A stretch of 37,045 nucleotides of DNA from NCBI GenBank assembly GCA_902806085.1, contig CADCVH010000046.1, positions 1-37,045 on the forward strand, in the 5' to 3' direction. Numbering within the stretch: the stretch's first letter is position 1; every line of letters begins with the position of its first letter. The DNA comes from an uncultured Rubrobacteraceae bacterium. GTDB lineage: Bacteria > Actinomycetota > Rubrobacteria > Rubrobacterales > Rubrobacteraceae. Under the pieces are notes generated by a model. It searched no databases and was not told the origin of the DNA. It worked only from the letters and a program-made list of their open reading frames with translations. A program made the position numbers and the translations under genes. Shown here piece by piece: positions 28,614 through 35,718 of this stretch.

Positions 28614-29219
28614 TCATCCGCGCTTCCACGCGGCCAGGGCGTCGCGCACGGCCTTCTCGCCCAGGCGTTCGGCTTGCTCCTCGCCGCCTTCCATGCGCCC
28701 CGCCATGGTCAGGGCCACCAGGCCGTGCACGGCCGCCCACAACGCGAGCACCTCCTCGGCCACGTCGGTCGCCTCCTTTCCGCGCCCACGCATCGCCTCC
28801 TCCACGGCCAGTCCGACCTCGTCGCCCACGCGCTGCCCCTCCTCCCAGGTCTCCGAGGCGGCGAAGGGGACCCCGCCGAGCCCGTACATGACCTGGTAGA
28901 GGTCCGGGGAGCCCCAGGCGAAGCGCAGGTAAGCGCGGGCCACCGCGTACAGGGCCCCCTCCGCGTCGGGGGCGTCCTCCCTCGCCGCCCGGACGGCGCG
29001 GGCGAGGTCCCCGAACCCGCCCTTCAGCAGCTCGAAGAGCAGGTCGTCCTTGGACTCGAAGTACTCGTAGACCACCGGCGCCCTGTAGCCGACCCGGTCG
29101 GCGATCTTGCGCACGCTAACCGCACCCCAGCCCTCCTCGGCGGCCAACTCCCGGGCGGCGGAGAGCAGGCCGGCCTTCCCGACCCTCTTCCTGCGCGTCT
29201 GCTTCCGCTCTCCGGTCAC
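28614..29219 (-). CDS. TetR/AcrR-family transcriptional regulator (TetR2)
   Basis: A 201-residue repressor with the helix-turn-helix at about residues 15-62 (KAGLLSAARELAAEEGW, VSVRKIADRVGYRAPVVYEY, FESKDDLLFELL). The C-terminal domain matches the WHG-type fold (AYLRFAWGSPDLYQVMYGLG, ALWAAVHGLVALTMAG). It is followed leftward by the SnoaL-cupin pair and carries two operator-like palindromes upstream. Start GTG 29219; the nearest ribosome site is weak. Effector unknown. It most likely represses itself and the downstream pair. Confidence 0.9.
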   Translation of the reverse strand: MTGERKQTRRKRVGKAGLLSAARELAAEEGWGAVSVRKIADRVGYRAPVVYEYFESKDDLLFELLKGGFGDLARAVRAAREDAPDAEGALYAVARAYLRFAWGSPDLYQVMYGLGGVPFAASETWEEGQRVGDEVGLAVEEAMRGRGKEATDVAEEVLALWAAVHGLVALTMAGRMEGGEEQAERLGEKAVRDALAAWKRG

Positions 29220-29282: not shown

Positions 29283-29332
29283 CGTGCCTGTCAAGCGGCG
29301 CGCGTGGTGTCGGAAGGCGTGGTGCCGCGGGC

Positions 29333-29811
29333 TTAGAGGGCCGCCGGGTAGGGGAAAGGCGCCTGCTGGAGGGCCTCGGGGCGGCGACGGGACCTGACGG
29401 CGTAACCTTCGGGCCTGGGGGCCTTCGGCCATCCCGCGTCACCGAGGAGGTCCTGCGACTCGAAGGGCCTGGGCTGCGCCGTCCCGTGGCGGACGGCGAA
29501 GAGGCGGGGGTTCGTCACGGCCTCGAGCTTGGCCCCCGCGGGAGCGAGGCATCGTAGAGACTCCCCATGCCTCCGTCGCGGAACGCGGCGATCCTGCGGT
29601 AGAGGGTGCGTTCCGGGGTCCCGGTCTCGTCCGCCCGCTCGGGCACCGGCTCGCCGAAGAGGACCAGAGGCCCGATCCTCTCGTGCTCCACCTGCTCGTC
29701 CCAGGCGCGCAGGAGTTCGATCTGCTCCCATTCGTGCGTGGGGCCTACGCGCCGCTTCTTCCGCCTTCCCATGCTTCCCCCCCAGGGAGCCGAACGTGGG
29801 TAGGATGCCAT
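29333..29811 (-). pseudogene. Internally deleted transposase (IS481/rve-type) relic
   Basis: From ATG 29811 the frame encodes WEQIELLRAWDEQVEHERI, PLVLFGEPVPERADETGTPE and RTLYRRIAAFRDGGMGSLYD, the N-terminal helix-turn-helix of IS481-like transposases. Near 29530 sequence in another frame takes over, with EAVTNPRLFAVRHG, RPFESQDLLGDAGWPKAPRP and EGYAVRSRRRPEALQQAPFP, to a TAA at 29333, resembling the end of such a transposase. The DDE catalytic core between them is gone, so this is a deletion derivative. The tail match rests on memory of related proteins. Repeat A copy 3 lies 9 nt beyond its start. Confidence 0.6.
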
Positions 29812-29820
29812 GAGTTAGGG

Positions 29821-29926
29821 TTTGCGGCCAGTTCCAGAGATTTCATGATTTCGGGGCGAAAAGCGCGGGTGTGCCTTCTGCCGGGCTCGGCTCCGCGCGG
29901 GCGTTGCGAGGTTTTTGGCTAGGTCT
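29821..29926 (+). repeat. Repeat family A, copy 3
   Basis: TTTGCGGCCAGTTCCAGAGA, TTTCATGATTTCGGGGCGAA, then CTGCCGGGCTCGGCTCCGCG, GGGCGTTGCGAGGTTTTTGG and CTAGGTC. Its block order matches copy 1. It ends 14 nt before repeat B copy 4. Confidence 0.7.
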
Positions 29927-29940
29927 CTCCATCCTACCCC

Positions 29941-30010
29941 TATTCACCGGAGTGCGTGGAAGGAAGATTCTCCGAAACTCGCGCCCACGGTCCCGCATAT
30001 CCGGGTCCCT
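29941..30010 (+). repeat. Repeat family B, copy 4
   Basis: TATTCACCGGAGTGCGTGGA, AGGAAGATTCTCCGAAACTC and GCGCCCACGG. The inner GAAGTTC arm is lost. It lies immediately after repeat A copy 3. Confidence 0.65.
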
Positions 30011-30491
30011 ATGAGAGCGTTTCGGCCTTCAAAACTGCGCGACGGGCAAAGTAGTCAACGCAAGATGTGGCGGTGCCGAATAGATATGCATCGTACAGCA
30101 TCACGGCACCTCGAGAAGCACGGGAGTGCTCCCTCTCGCAAACCCCGCACGTCGGTAACCGGGCGACCGAGAGGGACTCGCCGAGAGGATCGCGGCCCCG
30201 CGAACCTTCATGGCTCGAGGCCGGAGGCGGACTAAGACTTGCTGGAAGGATGAGAGCGGCAAGGCGCTGGCCACCAGCTTCTGCCTCGGAGGCCCCCGAA
30301 AGGCTGTACAAACGGGAGAGATGATCTCGGCGGGCCTGCCCCCTCTCACCCCGTCCCTTGCGGTACACGTCCCCCGAGCACCGCCGTGGTCACCCTAAAC
30401 TCCCGCATGAAGCGACAGGAGCGCCCGAGGCCCCGACCCGAAGAAGCGCCCACACCCTGCAAAGGACGCGGACTTCGACCGGGGGTAGACG

Positions 30492-30584
30492 TAGCGCGCG
30501 GAAGCGCGCGGAAGCGCGCGGATCGACTTCGCGCGATACAAAGCCCATTTCTATGCTGCATAACGCCTATCGCGCGGTCGCGCG
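30492..30584 (+). repeat. Left GC-array arm of the central island
   Basis: TAGCGCGCGGAAGCGCGCGG with a third GCGCGCGG unit by 30521, then ending in CGCCTATCGCGCGGTCGCGCG (30564-30584 in full). That 21-mer is repeated exactly inverted at 31261-31281. About 1.4 kb around this (30011-31387) contains no confident gene. Confidence 0.75.
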
Positions 30585-30758
30585 CCGGGAACGGGAGGCA
30601 TCTAATTTCCATCCCCAGGATGTGCTACCTATCGAGCTCACTAGCTGAAGGCAGGAGACTCCGATGACCTCTCCTTCCAGGGACAATACGCTGCAGCCGA
30701 GACATCTGTTGTTACCCCAAACTCTCTATCACCTTCACAGGTATAGACTGTCTATATC

Positions 30759-31103
30759 CTAAGGTAGGTAACGGTCCTCCTGACTACTGATCCGATACGT
30801 CATGGCTTGATCTAGTAGTAGGTCCATCTCCTCGTAAGGCCGTTCAAGGAGAAGCCTTTGATAGAGGCAGCTTGGTAGCATTGCGGGGGCGCCGGTACCG
30901 GCGCCCCTAGGGGATCCGAGGGCTACATCTCCGGCACGAATCATCACCAAAGGGATAGATGCCCCTTCATCCTCCTGCACCCGGTAATGAGGATAGCGTC
31001 GATGGAAACTACCTAGAGGTAGTAGTACGAAACTATCGCCTCTCCACCGACTATCCGCTGTCCTGTCTAGTGCTACCGCACAGGGGTACATGACAGAGGA
31101 CAT
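30759..31103 (-). CDS. Unrecognised ORF in less GC-rich island (doubtful)
   Basis: A 114-codon frame (MSSVMYPCAVALDRTADSRW..., ending SSQEDRYLP) inside the GC-poor segment between two inverted GC arrays. Codon use is unlike neighbouring genes: third positions are about half A/T, and CTA and GTA are common. No domain was recognised and no ribosome site is clear. It may be a foreign gene of different base composition, a decayed one, or chance. It contains a 22-bp perfect palindrome at 30886-30907. Confidence 0.25.
   Translation of the reverse strand: MSSVMYPCAVALDRTADSRWRGDSFVLLPLGSFHRRYPHYRVQEDEGASIPLVMIRAGDVALGSPRGAGTGAPAMLPSCLYQRLLLERPYEEMDLLLDQAMTYRISSQEDRYLP
30886..30907. repeat. 22-bp perfect palindrome
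   Basis: GGGGCGCCGGT followed by ACCGGCGCCCC, 11/11 symmetric, overlapping a second palindrome CCCCTAGGGG to its right. It is an isolated GC block in a relatively AT-rich segment. Confidence 0.6.
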
Positions 31104-31260
31104 TGGTGGAGGACTTCTCCCTGGAGGAAATCATATCGTTGCTGATGAGGAACCTCCGATAGACACGGTTGAAGCCAATAGGGGTAGCCAAGCAATTGCA
31201 CTAAGGCTCGGAGATACCGGTGGATTGACGTCCTCGAAAAACCGTTGCCCTCGTCGAGCC

Positions 31261-31352
31261 CGCGCGACCGCGCGATAGGCGGAAACCCTGTTTGAGAGTG
31301 GCTTCCTAGCGCGCGGTCCCTTTCCGCGCGCTACCGCGCGATCGCGCGCAAC
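31261..31352 (-). repeat. Right GC-array arm of the central island
   Basis: CGCGCGACCGCGCGATAGGC plus G (31261-31281) is the exact inverse of 30564-30584. Further right, TAGCGCGCGG and CCGCGCGCTA form a hairpin with a 7-nt loop (31308-31337), then CCGCGCGATCGCGCGC. Confidence 0.7.
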
Positions 31353-31387
31353 CTCACTGCAGGGGGGATCGCCTCTGGGTCTCGACC

Positions 31388-31483
31388 TCACCCTGGCCGG
31401 CCTGTTCGGGATGCTGGTGCAATAGGATGGGGCAAGCGGTCCCAGACGCTGATCACTCCCTCCTCCTCTCCCTTCTCCGCCAT
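31388..31483 (-). CDS. Possible 31-residue small ORF
   Basis: ATG 31483 with GGAG about 5 nt upstream reads MAEKGEEEGVISVWDRLPHP to a TGA at 31388, 8 nt after the stop of the 118-residue gene. It is too short to judge coding from composition. It could be translated from the same transcript. Confidence 0.25.
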   Translation of the reverse strand: MAEKGEEEGVISVWDRLPHPIAPASRTGRPG

Positions 31484-31491
31484 CGCTGCTC

Positions 31492-31848
31492 CTACTCCCC
31501 CCGCTGCCGTTGCCCCCGCATGTGGCGGCGGAACAGGACGCTGAGCAACGCCTGGGCGTCGGCCAGCTCCCCGGCCGGGAAGCGTCCGTCGGCCATGCGG
31601 CGGAGCGTGGAGTTCTCCACCCCTAGCAGGCGCGAAGTCTCGAAGTCCAGCGCCTCCACGACCCCCTCCCCGTATATCTCCTCTAGCTCCCCCCTCTCGA
31701 ACCACGCCGTCCGGCGCCCGAGGTGCTCCTCGACGGCGTCCCAGTCCTCCTCGCGTGGGGCCAGCTCCCCGGCCGAGGCGCGGAAGTGGTACGGTTGATC
31801 TCCGCCCGCGGAGGTGAGGCGCCCGCGCGCCTCCTCGGGGGGCACCAC
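31492..31848 (-). CDS. Conserved-looking acidic protein, function unknown
   Basis: A 118-residue frame with GC-biased codons and an acidic composition: DQPYHFRASAGELAPREEDW, LGRRTAWFERGELEEIYGEG, VVEALDFETSRLLGVENSTL and RRMADGRFPAGELADAQALL. The segment SRLLGVENSTLRRMADGRFP looks like a helix-turn-helix of the XRE style, but I am not certain. GTG 31848 is the most upstream start codon, without a ribosome site. The frame is open upstream to about 31962 (SKQRWDHRPPRAW precedes the start) with no start codon, so the gene may be 5'-truncated. Confidence 0.5.
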   Translation of the reverse strand: MVPPEEARGRLTSAGGDQPYHFRASAGELAPREEDWDAVEEHLGRRTAWFERGELEEIYGEGVVEALDFETSRLLGVENSTLRRMADGRFPAGELADAQALLSVLFRRHMRGQRQRGE

Positions 31849-32004
31849 CCACGCCCGCGGCGGCCGATGGTCCCAGCGTTGCTTAGAGCCGCCTGAAACG
31901 GTTTCTGAGCCGCGGCGGCGCTGCCAGGCGGCAAGGGGGCCGGTAACAGTGCCCGGGCACTAGAAAGGCCTATATGCCTCACCCGGATGAGCGGCTGGGT
32001 TTAT

Positions 32005-32292
32005 CTACGGCGCATATCAGGCCGCATGGGATCACTTTGCCCCAGCCACGACCGCATCCTCCCAGCGCAGGATCTGGACATATCGATTGTATTCCTTGAC
32101 TACAGCGCATAAAGGGCTGCGGGAAGGCGTACCTCGGTCCGATGGACACGTCGTGGGGGTGGCGGGCCCAACCTCCACCGCGCGTCTCCGGCCGCACCGG
32201 GCCGTCGTCCCCGATCCGCGGCCGCATCCCCGCGGCGCAGGATCCGGACACACCGGCTGCATTCCTTGACTACGGCGCATATCGGGCCGCGG
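32005..32292. repeat. Degenerate direct repeats (CTACGGCGCATATC units)
   Basis: A 75-bp unit at about 32043-32118 (CCGCATCC, CAGCGCAGGATCTGGACA, ATTCCTTGACTACAGCGCAT) recurs at about 32213-32292 (GCGGCGCAGGATCCGGACAC, ATTCCTTGACTACGGCGCAT), 170 bp apart. A further half-unit TACGGCGCATATCAGGCCGC starts near 32006. The stretch 31962-32403 has no credible gene; on the minus strand the units read CAVVKEYNRYVQILR and CAVVKECSRCVRILR in different frames. Confidence 0.6.
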
Positions 32293-32403
32293 TGACTGTC
32301 CACTACCGCACGTGCCAGGCCGCGCCTTACCGTTCCATCGTCCGCGCACTTACACGGCGCGTAGTCCCCGTTGGGTAGGCCAGCAGCCCCGGGAAGTGCC
32401 GGG

Positions 32404-32580
32404 TCAGGCGGCGGTGGCACTCGTCGGTACGGGCGTCCGTTGATTCGGCGGCGCCGCGGCGGTCGGTATCCCGTCGTGCTCCCCGGCGGACAACGCGGCC
32501 TCATCCTTCGCCACCATCGCCCGGATGCGCTCGCACTCCCGCAGCACCAGCGCGAACCTGTCGATCTCTTCGTCGGTCAT
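32404..32580 (-). CDS. Small 58-residue protein, function unknown
   Basis: ATG 32580 encodes MTDEEIDRFALVLRECERIR, then AMVAKDEAALSAGEHDG and a Pro/Thr/Ala-rich tail, ending at TGA 32404. The first 35 residues form an amphipathic helix-like stretch; the tail seems disordered. The upstream gene ends 8 nt before, with GGAGGG at about 13 nt from this start, so it is probably translated in the same operon. No family was recognised. Confidence 0.5.
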   Translation of the reverse strand: MTDEEIDRFALVLRECERIRAMVAKDEAALSAGEHDGIPTAAAPPNQRTPVPTSATAA

Positions 32581-32588
32581 GCCGTCTG

Positions 32589-32915
32589 CTATCCCTCCGC
32601 CGGCGTCCCGCGGGCCCGCCGCCCGTCGCGGTGGCCCCGGTAGTAAGCTAGCCTCTCCTCATGGCCCGCCCATCCCGCGAGGTTCGGGTTCTCGGGGAAC
32701 GTCCGCGGCGGCCCGAAACGGCCATCCTCCCAACCGCTCCTGTAGGCCGGGTCCTCCCTCAGGACACCGAGCTCCTCGATCGCCTGCTGCTCCCGGATCA
32801 TCTCCGTTTCCTCCAACGTAGTCTCCAAGGCACATCCTTCGGCGCTCCCCAAGCTGGCAACCCCGACGGGGTAGCGGAGGCGGCATTCCCGAACTGTTGG
32901 TTTCTCCTGGGCCAT
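32589..32915 (-). CDS. Small 108-residue protein, function unknown
   Basis: ATG 32915 has an excellent ribosome site (GGAGGAG, 6-7 nt upstream). The protein has an N-terminal TVRECRLRYPVGVASLGSAE, a helical middle ETEMIREQQAIEELGVLRED and a charged C-terminal part with PAYRSGWEDGRFGPP, WAGHEERLAYYRGHRDGRRA. It contains two cysteines and no membrane segment. It is followed after 8 nt by the 58-residue gene. Function was not recognised. Confidence 0.6.
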   Translation of the reverse strand: MAQEKPTVRECRLRYPVGVASLGSAEGCALETTLEETEMIREQQAIEELGVLREDPAYRSGWEDGRFGPPRTFPENPNLAGWAGHEERLAYYRGHRDGRRARGTPAEG

Positions 32916-33060
32916 CGTCGCGCTCCTCCGTGGATGGGTTCTGCTTGTACTAGAATCCTAGCTTGGCAGCGTGAGGTGACACGGGGGTTACAGGCCGGCC
33001 AACGTTTGATAACCAAGTAGCAAAGATGCGGAGTTGTGCAGCCCTCCCATGATCCTGTGC

Positions 33061-33105
33061 GGACTAAGTTCGCGGAACAAGCCTTCCACGCGCTCGGGCG
33101 GATAG
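33061..33105 (-). repeat. Repeat family B, copy 5 (inverted)
   Basis: On the minus strand: CTATCCGCCCGAGCGCGTGG, AAGGCTTGTTCCGCGAACTT. It lies in the 298-bp gap 32916-33213, which shows nothing else clear. Confidence 0.65.
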
Positions 33106-33213
33106 TGGGCAATTACGGAGCGGACGCCCGCCCGGTCCCTCACGAGGGGGAACTGAGGTCGCGCCGGCGCGGAATCGGCCAGGGTGGGATCATGCCTAGC
33201 ACGCGGGAGGTCG

Positions 33214-35718
33214 TTACTGCGCGGCCACGAACTCCTCGTAGGAGAGCTCGGGCATGAACAGGTCGTACTCCTCCTGGCCGAACCTGTGCTGCCAGGCGCC
33301 GTACTCCCGGACGAAGTAGGTCGTGCGCGTCGAAGAAGTGCCGTCCCCGTAGGTGAGGGTCAGCGTGACTTCCACAACCTGCTCGTTGTCGGTTCCTACG
33401 CTCTCCGCGGAATCGATGTTGTAGATCACGGAGCCGTTGTCCGCGAACCACTGGTTCTTGGCGAACCACTCCTCCTCCGTGAACAGGCTCTGGGTCTCGG
33501 AGTCGAGGTTCTCGTAGGTGTAGGCCCAGTCCCCCACCCCCGCGGCCCTGTAGTACTCCCCCGCCGCAGCCTCCGCCTCGGCCACGGGGTCCTCGGCGCC
33601 GGGACCGGAAGAGTCCGGAACCTCGACCATGCTGGAGAGGGCACGCCGGGCGATCTCCCCGGAAGGGTCTTGGAGCGGCACGCGCAGGACGTAGTGGTGG
33701 CCCTCCCTCTCGAAGGAGCCTTCCCAGAAGGGGCCCTGGTTCACCAGCTCGCCTTCCTTCGGCTCCATGTAGCGGAGGGTGGCCTCTGTGCCGTCGGGCA
33801 GGTCCACCGCCTCCTCCTTCGTGGCCTCGAAGACCTCTGAAGCCTCGTAGGGGGGTTCTGGGGCGGCGGCGAGGGTGCCGACGTCGTTGGCGTGGACGTA
33901 GCTCTCGACCACGTTGCCCGTGGGCCTGTAGAGGGAGAGGACCCCGTACCCATCCCCGCCCCGGTCGGCGTCCACGGCGACGTTCCCGAGCTCCTCGGGC
34001 AGGTCGGCCGGGAGCATGATCGGCGCTGTGGTCGTTTGCCTCAGGGTGGGCAGCAGCGGGTCGAAGGTGGGGTCGGCCTCAGAGTCCACTCCCTCGGGCG
34101 GGATAGACACCACGGTCGGCTCCGGCGGGGCCGGTCCGTCTGGGGGCGGCGTTGCGCCCGAGGGTTCGGGCGTCGCAGACGGACCGGGCGACCCGTCGGG
34201 GGCCGGTTGCCCGCCCGCGGCCAGGGGACCGGCGGGCTGGGCGACACCCGAGGAGGTGTCGGCGAACAGGATGGGCAGGCTCGCGAGCACGAGCGCCCCG
34301 CTGACAAGCGACGCGGCGACGAAGGCGCGGCCGGGGCGCGGGGTGGGGAAGGCGTCCCCCCCGGAGAGGAGCCCCCCCAGCGCGCCGAGGACGGCGCCTA
34401 CCGGCACAAGCAGTAACAGCCAGGCCAGGGACGCCCGGAACGCCACCTCCAAGCTCGCGGCCCCGGCCAGGGTCAGGTCGGCGCTCGCGCCAACGAGCAC
34501 GGCCGCGAGGAAGGCGGTCGCGGCGTAGGGCAGGGCGACCAGCGCGCCCCGTTGCCACTTGGTTCCCGGCGGTGCCCCGCGCCCGGCGACCAGGCCGCCG
34601 ACGAGGAGGCCGAAGATGGGGCCGATCAGGAGCAGGCGCCACGCACCGCCCCACGGCCAGTCGCCGAGGAGGGAGACCCGCAGCGGGACGTCCGAGAGGG
34701 CTTGTCCGACCAGCGGGATGCCGGACAGGTCCGGCGCGTTCTGGAAGCCCACGGGGACTCCGTGCGCCAGCAACCACAGGTTGCCGAGGGCCACGGGCAG
34801 GAGCGCGAAGACGGCGCCGACCGCCGCGAGCACGTCACCTATAGATCCGCCCCCGAGGCTAGGCCGGGGCAGGGCTTGGGGCGCCTGCCGCACCGGCTCG
34901 GGCGCGCCCGAGCCCTGCGCGAGCGCGACGATCAAGGCGATCACGAGCGCCACGGCGAGGGAGACGCCTACGGCCCAGAGGGCGCCGCGGAGTACCTGTC
35001 GGGCCCACGCCGGGAGCAGGGGACCCCGGGAGGCCGCCGACCCCAGCGCCGTCCCGAGCCCCACCCACAAAAAGCCGCGCAGGGCGGCCGAGAGCGGGTC
35101 GGAGGCGAAGCGGACCGCGACGTCTCCGGTCTCGGAGGAAGCGGTACCGAGCAAGGCTAGCAGCGCGACGAGGAGGGCGTAGGCGAGGGCCGCAGTGATC
35201 GCGAAGAGGGCCGCTGTCCGCGCGCGATGCCCCAAGAGCCGCCCTGCGAGGAGCGAAGCGAGGAAAGGCACGAGCGCGAAGGAGGTGATGGGCAGCCCGA
35301 GGCGGACGGAGCCGCCGATGCCCAAGAGCGCGGGGACGGGCGGCACGTCCACGGAAGCGCCGCCCCCGTGCATCAAGGCGAAGAGCGCGAGCCCCACGGT
35401 CCCGGGAACGGCGGGGTCCTGGAACGCCCCGCGGGCGGCGAGCGCGGCATATATCGCGGCCACCAGAAGGCCAGCGCAGACGAGGGCGAGCAGGAGCCCG
35501 AGAAGGGCGTCCCGGCCCGCGCCGGGGAACCGCAGGCTCTGCGTGCCGTGGCCGCCGGCCCGTCCTTGCGGCCGGGGCATCTCCCGGGTGGTCTGCCCGT
35601 CTCCGGAACCGAAAGAGACACGGGCCCCACAATTCCCGCAGAAGGCGTCATCCGGGCTTGCCTGAGCCCCGCAGTTGGTGCAGTACCGTCGGGGTCGCTC
35701 GGGGCTTCCCTGTTGCAT
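33214..35718 (-). CDS. Zinc-ribbon multi-pass membrane protein with C-terminal exported domain
   Basis: An 834-residue protein. The N terminus carries a zinc ribbon: Cys13-x-x-Cys16 (YCTNCGAQ) and Cys27-x-x-Cys30 (FCGNCGAR). About twelve hydrophobic segments follow (residues 65-490), then a Pro/Gly/Ser/Thr-rich linker with PGPSATPEPSGATPPPDGPA, and a C-terminal region of about 260 residues. Its last part (EYYRAAGVGDWAYTYENLDS, NGSVIYNIDSAESVGTDNEQ, YGDGTSSTRTTYFVREYG) resembles an NTF2-like DUF4878-type exported domain (tentative). ATG 35718 has GGAGGGGG upstream. Function is unknown. Confidence 0.8.
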   Translation of the reverse strand: MQQGSPERPRRYCTNCGAQASPDDAFCGNCGARVSFGSGDGQTTREMPRPQGRAGGHGTQSLRFPGAGRDALLGLLLALVCAGLLVAAIYAALAARGAFQDPAVPGTVGLALFALMHGGGASVDVPPVPALLGIGGSVRLGLPITSFALVPFLASLLAGRLLGHRARTAALFAITAALAYALLVALLALLGTASSETGDVAVRFASDPLSAALRGFLWVGLGTALGSAASRGPLLPAWARQVLRGALWAVGVSLAVALVIALIVALAQGSGAPEPVRQAPQALPRPSLGGGSIGDVLAAVGAVFALLPVALGNLWLLAHGVPVGFQNAPDLSGIPLVGQALSDVPLRVSLLGDWPWGGAWRLLLIGPIFGLLVGGLVAGRGAPPGTKWQRGALVALPYAATAFLAAVLVGASADLTLAGAASLEVAFRASLAWLLLLVPVGAVLGALGGLLSGGDAFPTPRPGRAFVAASLVSGALVLASLPILFADTSSGVAQPAGPLAAGGQPAPDGSPGPSATPEPSGATPPPDGPAPPEPTVVSIPPEGVDSEADPTFDPLLPTLRQTTTAPIMLPADLPEELGNVAVDADRGGDGYGVLSLYRPTGNVVESYVHANDVGTLAAAPEPPYEASEVFEATKEEAVDLPDGTEATLRYMEPKEGELVNQGPFWEGSFEREGHHYVLRVPLQDPSGEIARRALSSMVEVPDSSGPGAEDPVAEAEAAAGEYYRAAGVGDWAYTYENLDSETQSLFTEEEWFAKNQWFADNGSVIYNIDSAESVGTDNEQVVEVTLTLTYGDGTSSTRTTYFVREYGAWQHRFGQEEYDLFMPELSYEEFVAAQ

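Follow-up and report, generated by a model that had tools for sequence, protein, structure and literature searches.

A G+C-poor island enclosed by inverted-repeat arms in an uncultured Rubrobacteraceae bacterium, a candidate lineage-restricted structured non-coding RNA

The island and its surroundings

The window analysed here, a stretch of 37,045 nucleotides, is one contig (CADCVH010000046.1) of the 4.4-Mb genome of an uncultured Rubrobacteraceae bacterium (assembly GCA_902806085.1). It contains a gene-poor stretch (about 29320-33150), flanked by a TetR-family gene (28614-29219) and a gene encoding an 834-aa zinc-ribbon protein (33214-35718). Several short ORFs of this stretch are without family match, and at 29515-29811 a possible HTH fragment of transposase type gave weak matches below the cutoff. 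Matches to the 834-aa zinc-ribbon gene in other members of the genus are only partial-length. No tRNA was found in the window, the scanned neighbours include no identified gene for replication or partition, and neither a promoter-like site nor a terminator-like site adjoining the island was detected. The island lies within the gene-poor stretch and is composed of the following features.

30494..30584 (+): left arm, with three tandem AGCGCGCGG(A) units and the 21-nt perfect inverted repeat (30564-30584) at its end
30585..31260 (+, with either strand possible as sense): G+C-poor non-coding interior with an excess of complementary 5-/6-mers, the proposed RNA body
30886..30907 (+): perfect 22-bp palindrome GGGGCGCCGGTACCGGCGCCCC, local hairpin possible on both strands
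30992..31037 (+): possible hairpin with loop E / sarcin-ricin signature, hand-drawn from sequence
31042..31111 (+): possible long hairpin closed by CUCCACC...GGUGGAG and containing GUCCUGUC/GACAGAGGAC and GUGC/GCAC as inner helices
31261..31349 (+): right arm, with the 21-nt inverted copy (31261-31281), an TAGCGCGCGG/CCGCGCGCTA hairpin (31307-31333) and an CGCGCGATCGCGCGC end

Several further elements were observed around the island. An intergenic repeat of about 45-110 bp (core GGAAGGAAGATTCTCCGAAACTCGCG), which is interspersed in many copies across the genus, is located at 29873-29984; two conspecific contigs (C98 and C187) both diverge from the window within this repeat, at 29958-29976, which indicates rearrangement or misassembly there. 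To the right of the island, the gene-poor region holds two 119-nt direct copies (32004-32122 and 32174-32292, 74% identical), as well as a 118-aa ORF (31492-31848, -) with gene-like codon-position bias (third-position G+C 0.92) for which neither Pfam nor NCBIfam gave a hit above the cut-off. A second copy of the 834-aa zinc-ribbon gene is present elsewhere in the same genome (G000:C20:39799-41496), with protein pieces that are 81-89% identical and one in-frame stop in one piece.

According to the sequence and repeat search, the 21-mer CGCCTATCGCGCGGTCGCGCG at 30564-30584 (+) has a perfect inverted copy at 31261-31281, exactly where an earlier reading of the sequence alone (hereafter the sequence-only reading) had placed it. 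This pair is the longest perfect inverted repeat of the window at spacings up to 2 kb (the runner-up is 17 bp); none of 100 window shuffles gave a match to it with up to three mismatches allowed, and a chance origin is not expected. The repeat is enclosed by 89-nt arms (30496-30584 and 31261-31349), which are 72% complementary and have 676 nt between them. The arrays reported for the two arms were likewise recovered, namely three GCGCGCGG units at 30494-30521 on the left and the TAGCGCGCGG hairpin at 31307-31333 on the right. Several variants of the motif TA[G/T]CGCGCGG are clustered within the arms in both orientations, and two G-U versus three A-C mismatches were counted between the arms, that is, no G-U excess. 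A search of the bacterium's own genome with the arms retrieved nothing beyond the locus itself, which is single-copy, and the tandem motif array of the arms has no second occurrence elsewhere in the genome.

The interior (676 bp) has a G+C content of 53.6%, versus 68.1% in the whole window, where no other 675-bp stretch is as low; CpG is depleted, and TAG/CTA are enriched. All six frames are interrupted by stops (5-17 per frame), and third-position G+C in the longest interior ORFs is 0.51 and 0.43, compared with 0.82-0.94 in the neighbouring genes and candidate genes. Neither the interior nor the 114-aa ORF within it matched Pfam or NCBIfam, and no recognisable transposase is present inside. 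The lower G+C, the weak third-position bias and the lack of a transposase, all three of which the sequence-only reading had noticed, are thus borne out, and the interior is apparently non-coding.

Folding and complementary words

In the folding check, which the sequence-only reading had also proposed, both strands were folded, and the whole element was found to be very stable (z -6.6 on the + strand and -6.5 on the - strand, 20 shuffles per strand), with mean pairing probabilities of 0.7-1.0 in the closing-stem helices. With 200 shuffles per strand, the interior alone gave modest values of -1.3 on the + strand, where 18 shuffles folded equally well, and -2.2 on the - strand, where 2 did, so the whole-element signal comes mostly from the arms, and a z of -6.5 was tempered as proof of RNA structure. 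A second signal, which is independent of energy models, comes from complementary words. The interior contains 112 inverted 6-mer pairs, compared with 69.5 +/- 10.3 in shuffles (z about 4), and its reverse-complementary 5-mers also exceed shuffles, while direct 6-mer pairs (76 versus 64.0 in shuffles) are not significantly in excess. The inverted-word excess is absent from three neighbouring segments; among 162 positions along the window, the interior has the highest complementary-word excess, with several others reaching z 3.0-3.5.

The G-bulged sarcin-ricin motif (loop E) has as its sequence signature a GAA opposite an AGUA between two helices. In the possible hairpin at 30992-31037, GAA (31005-31007) would face AGUA (31024-31027) between two helices, the inner one being ACUACC/GGUAGU. 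A scan of both strands located this signature twice in the entire window, one of these in the island, and at least one loop E-like motif turned up in about 7% of the island's composition shuffles; the minimum-energy fold of the + strand gives this segment other pairing than the hand-drawn hairpin. The neighbouring hairpin (31042-31111) has a probability of 0.98-1.0 in the - strand fold, whereas the + strand fold favours long-range pairing. As to the sense strand, energy points to the - strand, while loop composition (unpaired A 36% in the + strand fold) and the loop E motif point to the + strand.

Conspecific copy and homologue searches

Within a collection of 84,980 species, the only relative of the element was found in a conspecific Rubrobacteraceae MAG, AVDCRST_MAG01 (contig CADCUW010000098.1). 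This MAG, presumably the same record as genome G005, matches the window at 99.8% identity across 7 kb, and the differences over those 7 kb consist of one substitution, a gap of one base and the absence of one 10-bp unit. The missing unit is the left-arm AGCGCGCGGA (30493-30502); this could be an assembly effect, because both assemblies are drafts, and the closing stem is still predicted to be stable with one unit less.

A search of relatives was another check proposed by the sequence-only reading; when the genus, 39 genomes of the family and 296 of the phylum were searched with BLASTN, just the two conspecific copies were retrieved. Short matches in two other genomes (G119 and G232) covered no more than 25 nt of the GC-rich arms and were judged to be chance. 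The module at 30985-31115, searched as a covariance model, likewise retrieved just the two conspecific copies from 39 family and 396 phylum genomes. This model is based on two identical sequences with a structure drawn by hand, and only few candidates were scored per genome in the larger sets, so weak homologues may be missed; weak matches in two genomes (G136 and G170) had broken pairs or lacked the second hairpin and were also judged to be chance. Blastn against plasmids and phages gave no related record, and exact 17-19-mer matches in viral contigs were short and isolated, with no related locus. Judged from these searches, the element appears so far to be limited to one species and lineage-restricted.

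Interpretation and comparison with known elements

Our best reading, held tentatively and with somewhat less than even confidence, is that the locus encodes a candidate lineage-restricted structured non-coding RNA, about 860 nt long, whose ends are joined in a GC-rich stem. What is observed of this reading are the two arms, an interior that is non-coding and the complementary-word excess, and structured RNAs in GC-rich genomes commonly lie below the genome G+C. The RNA ends (30494-30584 and 31261-31349) would pair into a long, interrupted GC-rich closing stem, and the 676-nt interior would fold into many shorter helices; we infer transcription, processing of the ends and a cellular role as further steps. 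Counted against the RNA are the modest interior fold z, the failure of the searches to retrieve a homologue other than the conspecific copy, the lack of a G-U excess in the arms, of a promoter-like site and of a terminator-like site adjoining the island, the chance frequency of the loop E signature (about 7%) and the absence of its hairpin from the + strand minimum-energy fold. The suggestion of a folding non-coding RNA in the sequence-only reading has moderate support: the complementary-word excess, the stable closing stem, the non-coding interior and the loop E signature speak for it, while the fold of the interior alone is modest.

The sequence-only reading had also suggested a mobile or foreign insertion, and the strongest alternative, which we consider unlikely, is of this kind: a decayed G+C-poor segment with terminal inverted repeats, MITE-like or an IS remnant, in a gene-poor mosaic region. 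It would account for the G+C drop, the CpG depletion and the TAG/CTA enrichment of the interior, and is consistent with the surrounding short or unassigned ORFs (including the possible HTH fragment), with relatives that lack the element and with the partial-length matches to the right-hand neighbour gene in other genus members. Like MITEs and IS-derived elements with terminal inverted repeats, the island has a non-coding core between inverted repeats; however, it is single-copy, its own genome yielded neither further copies nor an autonomous partner that shares its terminal repeats, and its arms and tandem array are unmatched elsewhere there. The search for target-site duplications gave no convincing candidate, since all that it returned were low-complexity GCGCGC/CGCGCG matches of 6 nt within the arms, the interior lacks a transposase, and the complementary-word excess inside is unexpected of a decayed gene. 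These results speak against a transposon whose relatives are active in the same genome, and the mobile part of the suggestion has little support. The locus may still be an old insertion or a block acquired as a whole from elsewhere, because it is absent from all searched relatives and no syntenic empty site was found among them, the genus matches to the 834-aa gene being only partial-length.

Slightly less probable again is an element acting at the DNA level, in which the array of TA[G/T]CGCGCGG motifs in both orientations would serve as protein-binding sites or form a cruciform, with the interior as spacer. The clustering of motif variants in the arms fits such an array, as does the left-arm unit number, which is not the same in the two MAGs, a kind of variation found in tandem arrays of binding sites. 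However, the complementary-word excess inside and the 21-bp perfect match between the arms are left unexplained, and the scanned neighbours gave no replication or partition gene. An unrecognised small protein gene or genes, such as the 114-codon open frame at 30759-31103 (-), is very improbable, because that frame lacks codon-position G+C bias (0.65/0.48/0.51, versus 0.76/0.50/0.94 in the TetR gene), has no Pfam or NCBIfam match, and has the conspecific copy as its sole relative in plasmids, 84,980 species genomes and viral contigs (weak family-level matches, E 0.02-0.1, were taken as chance).

For the structured RNA that we favour, two kinds of known RNA offer comparisons. Pre-rRNA processing stems are long inverted repeats that close a structured RNA of sub-genome G+C, and the long inverted repeat of the island also closes a lower-G+C candidate RNA. 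The analogy suggests that the stem of the island would keep the two RNA ends paired and could be a substrate for a double-strand RNase. Rfam does not identify the interior as rRNA; two interior 10-mers presumably resemble 23S rRNA, and the idea of an rRNA piece was dropped as no rRNA model matched.

Like ROOL, GOLLD and OLE, the island is several hundred nucleotides long and non-coding, with many helices, here predicted (PMC12286853). This comparison is one of kind, not family, because no Rfam family matched: covariance models including ROOL, GOLLD, OLE, HEARO and group I/II introns gave nothing at gathering threshold in the window, and a permissive scan of 30300-31500 gave nothing meaningful up to E 5. 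ROOL is found in phage or prophage, often close to tRNAs (PMC12286853), whereas the window has no tRNA, no related phage (blastn) or viral-contig locus was identified, and the island is known from one species only. It also differs from these RNAs in its long, GC-rich closing stem made of repeated units.

Some large structured bacterial RNAs form RNA-only cages or dimers (PMC12286853). It is possible, though rather doubtful, that the island represents a new class of large (about 860 nt) predicted RNA in Rubrobacteraceae, with a GC-rich stem of roughly 90 nt and a variable number of 10-bp units, which might assemble into a ROOL/GOLLD-like multimer. Large structured bacterial RNAs without assigned function are few, and the Rubrobacteraceae candidate, if true, would add a class to them.
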